From: Synechococcales cyanobacterium T60_A2020_003
GTDB lineage: Bacteria > Cyanobacteriota > Cyanobacteriia > RECH01
Reading direction: 5' to 3'
DNA: 36,043 bases
Assembly: GCA_015272205.1 (NCBI GenBank)
Contig: JACYMB010000159.1
Span: 1 to 36,043 of the forward strand
Shown here: in pieces, positions 8,182 to 11,831 of the stretch
Position numbering within the stretch: position 1 is the first letter of the stretch
Layout of the letters: each line of letters starts with the position of its first letter
Program-made: the position numbers and the translations under genes
The notes under the pieces: model-generated
Told to the model about the DNA's origin: nothing
The model's input: the letters and a program-made list of their open reading frames with translations, nothing else
Database searches by the model: none

Positions 8182-10218
8182 TTAAAACGTGAAGGACGTT
8201 CTCAATACGCCTGTGGTGACCGTGTTGTTACCACTATATCCTTCAGGATTAAACAAAACAAATACACCAGGCGTAATATTGATGTGATCGTTCACCTGAA
8301 AGGATAGATAGCCCTCTAGGTGCAAAGGTGTGGCATTCTCAAATCGATCTAACGCTTCACCCCCCGTTGAAACCCGCGACAGTGGCTTACCAAAGATCAG
8401 ACCCGCCGTATTGCTTTCACCAAAAATATCTTGAGCATGGAGTCCCACCATCCAACTACTGAAGTCGGTAGAGGCATTCACGTTAACCAAGTCTGCAAAG
8501 ATATACGCCCCAGATGCAGCAAAGGTCAGCTTGTCCGTCAGACGCCAGCTCATACTTGCACCGATAGAATTCATTCGAATGGGTTCACTCCCAATCGTCA
8601 CTAGGGTTGCCCCTCGATCAAAGTCTCCACCGTCGGTTGCCGAGCACCCAAAGCCACCTGCCGCTGCACCAAAGCCTACGGTGTCACAACGACTTGCTGG
8701 ATTGAATAACACAGAGCCAATATCGGCTGATGTCAATCCCGTTCCCAGAATATTGATCTGATGGTAGCTATGGGCGTAGTTAATGCCGAGCTCAAAGTTA
8801 GATGAAGGGCTGAGGGTAAGCTGAGCCGCAGCGACCGAGCTTCCATTGAACAGTCCAGCACCTAGAGGAGTGACATCACCAGAGGCAAGCGACTCTCCAG
8901 TGAGGGGATTATTTTGGGGAAGCGCCGCATTCACACTACCGTACAAGGCTCGAAAATCAACGACAGGCGATGGTGTCCAAATCAAGCCAAAAGCAGAGGC
9001 TAAACCCGTTCCCGACGTTCCCCCTGATACACGAACGGCTGCGTTATATCCTGCAAATCGGGAAATGGCTCCCTGGGTATCGCTCGCAAAGGGAGTAATC
9101 GCAGGGAAGGCATCGGTTGTTTCTGCATTCGTGCCTGCAAAGAGAGTCAAGTTGTCCAGTCCGCTGGGGAAAATATACAGCAACTTATATAACCGGAAGT
9201 CGTTGGCCGTATTGGGGGTAAAGGTTTGAGGATTAATGCCAGGAAATTGGGGTTCAGTATTTAAGCGCACTTGGCTAGCATTCAACCCCAAAACATCGGT
9301 ATAGCCCAGTGTTCCCTGGATGCTGCTGGGGTCGCTTAAGTAATTGTAGGATTGCAATCCGGTAATCAAGAGGTCACTGCCCGTAAAGCTGGTGGTGAGG
9401 TTGAGGCGAGTGCGTTGAAACAATGCAAATTGAGCATCATCACCGGGTGCCCCATCGGTATGGCTGAGGATGGCTGGGGTTGCATCTGGATCGCCCGCAC
9501 CGGGGTAGGCTCCTGATGCCGCCGCAATACTAAAGATCACTTCTCCATTGAGTTTCGTGGTGGTGGAGAATTGGTTCGCTTCTAACTCGTCCGTTCGAGC
9601 TTCTAATGCATCCACTCGGCCTCGCAGCATGGCTAGTTCTGCTGCGAATTCTTCTTGCAATCGTTGAACGGTCTCTAGGTCTTCACGAGTTGCGACATCC
9701 GCGAGACCAGACGCAATGATCTCATTAATACGGTCAAGACAGGCATTTAAACCAGCGGCAAACTCAAAGCGAGTAAGGGCGTTATTTCCACGGTAGGTAC
9801 TGTCAGGATAACCTACGATACAACCATAGCGTTCAACCAGGGATTGAAGGGCTTGATACGCCCAGTCTGTGGGTTGTACATCCGAAAGCTGGGTGACGGA
9901 AGTAATCTGTCCCAGGATTAAATGCCCAGGATTGAATGAAGATGCGGGTGATGGAGATAAATTACCCAACGGCGCACTTTCTAGATCCGATACACCCAAG
10001 ATTGGAGCATTGATCGGTGTAAAAGAGTTTGTGGATGATGCAGGTGTAGTCGGTGCAGGCATTTCAGATACTGCACTGGTTGTGCTTTCAACCGGGGAAT
10101 TGCTGGCAGTCTGGAGGGGATTAGCCTGTGCTACCGACGCAAACGCTAGAGGCTCTAAAAGGCTAGCAAGCGCACTTAAAACAAGCAGTTGAGTAATCGA
10201 CGAAACGGAATAGGCCAC
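8182..10218 (-). CDS. SLH-domain outer-membrane porin (Som/OprB-like)
   Basis: This major outer-membrane porin is of the cyanobacterial Som type (SLH plus carbohydrate-selective/iron-uptake porin barrel). The 678-residue protein has a signal peptide with likely cleavage near A-Q-A-N (about 30-33) and a Pro/Ser/Thr-rich linker to about residue 100. An SLH domain at about 108-170 (with D-W-A-Y-Q-A-L-Q-S-L and the G-Y-P-D-S-T-Y-R-G motif) would anchor it to peptidoglycan. A coiled coil follows at about 175-215, then a beta-barrel ending in the aromatic T-S-F-T-F typical of outer-membrane proteins. The start is GTG, chosen because GAGGA lies 6 nt upstream. That ribosome site overlaps a probable Yfr1 sRNA pairing site. 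The gene is monocistronic and contains no HIP1 octamer that I could find. Confidence 0.93.
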   Translation of the reverse strand: MAYSVSSITQLLVLSALASLLEPLAFASVAQANPLQTASNSPVESTTSAVSEMPAPTTPASSTNSFTPINAPILGVSDLESAPLGNLSPSPASSFNPGHLILGQITSVTQLSDVQPTDWAYQALQSLVERYGCIVGYPDSTYRGNNALTRFEFAAGLNACLDRINEIIASGLADVATREDLETVQRLQEEFAAELAMLRGRVDALEARTDELEANQFSTTTKLNGEVIFSIAAASGAYPGAGDPDATPAILSHTDGAPGDDAQFALFQRTRLNLTTSFTGSDLLITGLQSYNYLSDPSSIQGTLGYTDVLGLNASQVRLNTEPQFPGINPQTFTPNTANDFRLYKLLYIFPSGLDNLTLFAGTNAETTDAFPAITPFASDTQGAISRFAGYNAAVRVSGGTSGTGLASAFGLIWTPSPVVDFRALYGSVNAALPQNNPLTGESLASGDVTPLGAGLFNGSSVAAAQLTLSPSSNFELGINYAHSYHQINILGTGLTSADIGSVLFNPASRCDTVGFGAAAGGFGCSATDGGDFDRGATLVTIGSEPIRMNSIGASMSWRLTDKLTFAASGAYIFADLVNVNASTDFSSWMVGLHAQDIFGESNTAGLIFGKPLSRVSTGGEALDRFENATPLHLEGYLSFQVNDHINITPGVFVLFNPEGYSGNNTVTTGVLRTSFTF

Positions 10219-10224
10219 GATACA

Positions 10225-10233
10225 TCCTCACAC
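10225..10233 (-). promoter_or_regulatory. Porin ribosome binding site overlapping a probable Yfr1 sRNA target site
   Basis: On the mRNA strand these bases read GUGUGAGGA, containing the Shine-Dalgarno GAGGA 6 nt before the GTG start. The same nine bases are the exact complement of UCCUCACAC, the core of the unpaired ACUCCUCACAC motif of the cyanobacterial small RNA Yfr1. Yfr1 is known to repress Som-type porins in Prochlorococcus by pairing at the initiation region. The Yfr1 gene itself is not in this window. Confidence 0.6.
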
Positions 10234-10454
10234 AAGTTGAACAGATTACAATGAAAGAGTTGACAGATTTAAAAGTGTAGTAACACGAAGACCGACCGAG
10301 ATTCGACTACGAGCTTTAATGACTAGAACATCCCTTCAGTTGAGGTTTAATTAAGGCATTAAAATACGTAGCCAATTATTCTATTGATCAGCTAAGCCGC
10401 ATTGCACCGATATTGAAGTTATAGATGGATTGACGATCGCACATCTTCAACATC

Positions 10455-10615: not shown

Positions 10616-11164
10616 GAGTTCACAAAACTGCAGAGAGGAAGCAGCAATCGAATACTTCCCCAGGTAAGCATTACGCTAAGCGTTCATTCTTCAGACTTTT
10701 GAACATATGAAATTGACTTAAATTTGCATAACTAAATTCTAAATCCTAGGAGTATCACAGTAAATTTTGAATTGCTTATGAATACCTAATAAAAACTTAA
10801 TTATAAAATTCTAATTGCAAGCACATTTCTATCATAACCATAGTTAGGCTGACAGTAAATTGACTCAGCCGCCGCATAATAAGATGTCTTTATAGCTCAT
10901 ATTTATCAACTTTAATCAAAACCATTATCGGTACTTTAAAACTGAATTAAGGGCGATCGCATCCTAGATTTCGAGTAATTACCAATCGTCAATCTAAGCG
11001 ATCACATGAACGTATCCAAAAAGAGAGATTTGTACAAGCCAGATACTCGCTAATTCTCGGAGCCTGAACTTAAATTACTCACTCAACATCTTCATTTCAG
11101 TTGTCCGGTTTGTCTCAACGAGCCTCGGAAATTAATAAGCTGACACGATGTGCAACTCTCATCC

Positions 11165-11240
11165 CAACCCTTATCCCCAAGAGGAAGCGCTTTCGGATCG
11201 TTCTGGTTCCCTCTCCCAAGGGGCTAGGGTAGGGGCAGTC
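11165..11240. repeat. C-rich/G-rich palindromic repeat of the type dispersed in cyanobacterial genomes
   Basis: The stretch moves from CCCAACCCTTATCCCC to CCCTCTCCCAAGGGG and GGGCTAGGGTAGGGGC, so it can form an imperfect hairpin. Similar CCCTCTCCCAAGGGG-type runs are common interspersed repeats in cyanobacteria. Family assignment is from memory only. Confidence 0.35.
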
Positions 11241-11333
11241 TTTGCCAAGGGCTCGGTAAACGGCGCACATCACGTATATTTGAGTAATTTTGAAAAAGGT
11301 AAGCGATCGCCCATCAGTCCCTATCCCCCCGTC

Positions 11334-11831
11334 ATGAGCACCATCATTGAGATTCGAGATAGGTTTGGCGAAGTCTTAAAGCGATATGCTAGTTCCGATG
11401 CAACCTTGGGACTTCGAGGTGCGGTCATGGAAGGGGCTGAATTAACAGGCGCACAGTTAGCAGGTATGGATATGGAAAGAATCGACCTCTACTGAGCCAT
11501 TCTGTTCCAGGCCAACCTCGAAGGGGCAAATCTCAAGAATGCAAATCTTCAAGGCGCAGACTTAAAAGAAGCCAATTTAGTCAACGCAAATCTAGAGGGA
11601 GCTAACCTCAGACGCGATAACCTTGGCGGATCCACCCCTCTAGAGGGAGCCAATCTCACAGGCGCAATCCTCACGAATACCCATCTCGATGGCGCAACCT
11701 ATAACGCCCAAACCATCTTCCCACCTGGCTTTGATCCCCGCAAAGCCAATATGATTCCAACCCGTCTCCCCTGTTCCCCAGTCCTGAGCTTCTTTCTACA
11801 AGGGTGCGATCGCGCCTCCACGATCCATTAA
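11334..11831 (+). pseudogene. Pentapeptide-repeat protein interrupted by an in-frame TGA
   Basis: From the ATG at 11334 the frame encodes a normal start (M-S-T-I-I-E-I-R-D-R-F-G) and the first A(D/N)LxG-type repeats, then meets TGA at 11493-11495. Translation of the same frame beyond the stop continues without a shift into clean pentapeptide repeats (A-N-L-E-G, A-N-L-K-N, A-N-L-Q-G, A-D-L-K-E) and then the usual family C-terminus, T-Y-N-A-Q-T-I-F-P-P-G-F-D-P. A single GGA-to-TGA change would restore a full repeat. One later repeat block (R-R-D-N-L-G-G-S-T-P) is degraded and the frame runs about 25 codons past the expected end before TAA, so decay has probably gone beyond one mutation. The intact protein would form a right-handed beta-helix of unknown role. 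Confidence 0.75.

Follow-up and report, generated by a model that had tools for sequence, protein, structure and literature searches.

The small RNA Yfr1 has been described as a regulator of porin synthesis in two cyanobacteria. In Prochlorococcus MED4 it inhibits translation initiation of the som porins PMM1119 and PMM1121 through its conserved core (PMC6778093). In Nostoc PCC 7120, sfGFP reporter evidence obtained in E. coli identifies alr4550, alr0834, murC and mraY as targets, and all4499 is a target by prediction only (PMC6974561). The locus described here shares with the MED4 system the small RNA and the Som/OprB porin family; however, it belongs to another lineage, its porin starts with GTG, the predicted pairing covers 9 nt, and, of the genome's two porin sites, this one is the weaker. 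The resemblance to Nostoc lies in the targeting of OprB-like porins together with peptidoglycan genes and in that most sites lie shortly before the start codon, whereas the peptidoglycan candidate here is murE, not murC or mraY, and the present case is a prediction from sequence. Since Yfr1 control of Som and OprB-like porins has been published in these two lineages, we regard our case as a known circuit extended, not as a new one. An earlier sequence-only reading of this DNA had suggested that the circuit reaches the present organism; the presence of yfr1 and the conservation of the site support this, and the extension is less surprising than that reading implied.

A SomB porin and its ribosome site

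The window, i.e., the whole stretch of 36,043 nucleotides that was analysed, carries on its minus strand a gene for a SomB/OprB porin of 678 aa with an SLH domain (8182..10218), the putative regulated gene. Its product scores above the cutoffs for the SLH domain (PF00395, 31.1 bits), the OprB barrel (PF04966, 108.3 bits) and NCBIfam NF033921 por_somb (417.3 bits, cutoff 100), the SomB iron-uptake porin family.

The minus-strand leader reads CAACUU-GUGUGAGGA-UGUAUC-GUG-GCC. The predicted Yfr1 seed site GUGUGAGGA (10225..10233, minus strand), found by exact pattern match, is a perfect 9-bp complement of Yfr1 UCCUCACAC, and its 3′ part is the Shine-Dalgarno sequence GAGGA (10225..10229, minus strand), 6 nt ahead of the GTG start codon (10216..10218, minus strand). 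The porin therefore carries the complement to the Yfr1 core at its translation start, with nine base pairs over the Shine-Dalgarno, and the nine-base exact complement claimed by the sequence-only reading is confirmed at 10233..10225 of the minus strand. A signal-peptide-like N-terminus follows the GTG, and an in-frame TGA precedes it (10230-10228); as this stop codon lies inside the 9-mer, an upstream porin start is ruled out and the start is fixed downstream of the 9-mer.

Immediately next to the GAGG of the porin's ribosome site lies an out-of-frame ATG (10223-10225), which starts a frame of approximately 20 codons that overlaps the porin start. Scanning for sigma-70 promoters upstream of the porin gave no hit, and an Rfam scan of the whole window gave no match at gathering scores. 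At 11148-11800 of the window there is a pentapeptide-repeat-like frame with a stop at about 11493, past which the repeats seemingly run on; this is possibly a broken gene.

Yfr1 and its potential partners in the genome

Both RNA partners are encoded in this genome (G000). The yfr1 gene, which the sequence-only reading had proposed to look for, lies at G000:C168:1284-1348 on the minus strand beside a thioredoxin-like (trxA) ORF and scores 59.5 bits against a gathering score of 38 (Rfam RF01116). Besides this score and the neighbouring trxA (yfr1 often lies near trxA/guaB), it shows the remaining hallmarks of Yfr1: the core UUCACUCCUCACACCACACU is located between two stems, and the invariant ACUCCUCACAC is unpaired in the predicted fold, with an opening cost of about 0. 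The genome has four copies of CTCCTCACAC, one within yfr1 and three in antisense orientation, to two target sites and to a small-RNA-like gene on contig C96 (see below), so no second carrier of the Yfr1 core is evident.

Yfr1 UCCUCACAC can pair with 9/9 bases of GUGUGAGGA, and the next base on each side is a mismatch. The computed energy of the hybrid is -14.2 kcal/mol, or about -8.5 to -9.3 kcal/mol net of mRNA unfolding under several assumed 5′ ends, the porin site being partly paired in the predicted mRNA fold. When 154 leaders were ranked by plain duplex energy, the porin did not stand out, since long gapped helices prevailed; ranking the leaders by contiguous helices was informative.

In 4.02 Mb, the motif GTGTGAGGA is followed by a start codon after 3-11 nt at five distinct places, one of them spurious, with no real ORF behind it. 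The four real ORFs are the window porin, a porin on contig C334, murE and a mannosyl-3-phosphoglycerate-phosphatase-like (mpgP-like) gene; among their sites that of the window porin is the weakest (9 bp, about -8.5 net vs -11 to -15 elsewhere). Both OprB porins found in the genome, the second of which (C334) is also a SomB protein, thus carry the exact 9-mer on the ribosome site, although further porins could be missing from this count, as the assembly is a 403-contig draft of 95.6% completeness. The chance of both porins falling among four genes is ~1e-6, given an estimated gene number of ~3,500.

Upstream of its ATG, the murE gene, identified by TIGR01085 (561.8 bits), has GUGUGAGGAG, a 10-nt complement of Yfr1 (G000:C128:31750-31771). 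In murE of other cyanobacteria the sequence TGTGAGGAG is partly conserved, being kept in 10/30 leaders with at most one mismatch, and we consider murE a candidate Yfr1 target on these sequence grounds. It is not named as a Yfr1 target in the parts of PMC6778093 and PMC6974561 on which we draw. The mpgP-like gene (G000:C295:13590-13607) possesses at its ribosome site the full 11-nt complement GUGUGAGGAGU, the longest contiguous match of the genome. We rejected it as a conserved target, since 0/20 other loci share the complement with at most one mismatch; it is either a chance occurrence or a lineage-specific target. The absence of this longest match from relatives means that complementarity alone is insufficient to call a Yfr1 target.

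Conservation of the site in cyanobacterial porins

Comparison loci represent a genus-to-phylum sample of cyanobacteria. The exact GTGTGAGG stands at ribosome-site distance from the start codon in 76 of the 138 listed porin ORFs, a few of these entries being overlapping copies. When GAGG alone was used as the anchor, so that GUGU was not presupposed, GUGU preceded it in 59/94 porins versus 1/43 other ORFs of the same loci (Fisher p about 1e-12, a nominal value, as related sequences are not independent). After removal of near-duplicates, 45 of 70 porin leaders have GUGU together with GAGG. Across these 70 leaders only positions -5 to +4 around GAGG show raised relative entropy, the flanks being near background, and this stretch corresponds to (G)GUGUGAGGA, which is complementary to UCCUCACAC(C).

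Within the clade of window-porin orthologues (n = 19), G3 (17/19) and U4 (16/19) are strongly held, G1 is moderate (11/19) and U2 is near background (11/19). The variants are GCGUGAGGA, carried by many of these orthologues, and AUGUGAGGA; four loci (L012, L018, L044 and L056) are without a recognisable site. Judging by these counts, the tightly held part in the clade is GUGAGGA, with a preference at base 1, so the complement is conserved beyond the Shine-Dalgarno in orthologues as well. The expectation of the sequence-only reading that GUGU would be conserved beyond GAGG thus holds for porins at large, both in their contrast to other genes and in the entropy profile that ends with the complement, but not for U2 in the porin's own clade.

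These data bear on the most obvious alternative, namely that the 9-mer amounts to a usual Shine-Dalgarno that happens to have GUGU before it, and that Yfr1 is inactive here. GAGGA is needed for translation regardless, the outer bases are missing in some porin orthologues, and the unshared complement of the mpgP-like gene indicates that perfect chance-like sites occur. The bare motif is also not rare: counted by hand in 116 genomes, GTGTGAGGA...ATGA occurs 139 times and the permuted TGGTGAGGA...ATGA 131 times, a comparison that is uninformative, in part because the control retains GUGAGGA. However, a hand comparison with porin coordinates placed 11 real-motif sites just upstream of a listed porin, as opposed to 0 permuted-motif sites, suggesting that the signal resides in which genes bear the motif and in its conservation, not in its raw frequency. 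With GUGU so unevenly distributed between porins and other genes, conservation ending where the Yfr1 complement ends, and the 9-mer present on both porins of the genome, we judge an accidental GUGU very unlikely.

Predicted regulation, putative decoys and genomes lacking yfr1

On sequence grounds, the porin mRNA is very probably a target of Yfr1, which would block its ribosome site and lower porin synthesis. We infer that both RNAs are expressed, that the duplex forms in the cell and that its effect is repressive. The unpaired core UCCUCACAC of this constitutive small RNA would pair with all nine bases of GUGUGAGGA at the porin Shine-Dalgarno, keeping the 30S subunit off the GTG, so that less porin would be made; decay of the porin mRNA would be a probable follow-on of the pairing. 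Sites of this kind also precede the second SomB porin and murE, so that Yfr1 would tune the permeability of the outer membrane in concert with cell-wall synthesis.

Two further genes may act on Yfr1 itself. In MED4, the RNA Yfr2 contains a similar motif and relieves Yfr1 repression, according to assays of MED4-derived reporters in E. coli (PMC6778093). The genome examined here has two small-RNA-like genes of possibly this type, one at G000:C96:21393-21460 (L150 1497-1564) and one at G000:C186:50-128 (L178). The former consists of GUGUGAGGAGCGAA followed by a terminator-like hairpin and includes a 10-nt perfect Yfr1 complement; the latter contains GGUGAGGAGUGAA, which holds a 12-nt perfect complement. 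Both share with Yfr2 and Cyano-1 RNAs a porin-like sequence, GUGUGAGGAG or GUGAGGAGUGAA. Neither reaches the Cyano-1 gathering score of 41 (RF01701; 35.7 bits for the C96 copy and 36.8 bits for the C186 copy), and we therefore name them Cyano-1-like only, even though the C96 copy has the 5′ motif and the hairpin; the equation of Cyano-1 with Yfr2 is itself putative. By analogy, they are probable Yfr2-type decoys, which would titrate Yfr1 by presenting the same sequence as its targets and thereby relieve repression.

The yfr1 gene was found in 381/390 cyanobacterial genomes, and 5 of the 9 genomes without it are small picocyanobacterial ones, matching the reported absence of yfr1 from Prochlorococcus LL II/III (PMC6778093). 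The exact 9-mer is present in 5/9 porins of yfr1-less Prochlorococcus-like genomes vs 10/11 in yfr1-bearing relatives, which is only a trend, and its retention indicates that yfr1 itself is not strictly required for the site to persist. An RNA with the same core motif, Yfr10, was detected in the yfr1-less SS120 (PMC6778093) and may explain this retention. Persisting sites and Yfr10-type RNAs would also fit recognition of GUGUGAGGA by another factor, such as a translation activator, an RNA-binding protein, a porin-specific extended initiation signal or a Yfr10-like RNA; however, what is conserved coincides exactly with the Yfr1 complement and, in this genome, CTCCTCACAC is confined to the four positions given above, making such a factor about as improbable as a chance GUGU. 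To our knowledge, the 16S tail contains nothing complementary to the GUGU half of the site, which likewise speaks against it.

Returning to control by Yfr1, a circuit tested in two cyanobacteria can now be read from the leaders of most sampled SomB porins. The added value lies in this breadth across the phylum and in murE, proposed as a further cell-wall target. We suggest as a rule that GUGU before GAGG, conserved across orthologues, separates real Yfr1 targets from chance complements, and lineages without yfr1 offer a natural test. Somewhat speculatively, the circuit could be ancestral and phylum-wide, combining an invariant small RNA core, Shine-Dalgarno sites in most SomB porins and, in several lineages, murE, and a decoy RNA bearing the target sequence, with Yfr10-type RNAs replacing lost yfr1; it may have coordinated the supply of porins with that of peptidoglycan from the early cyanobacteria onwards.
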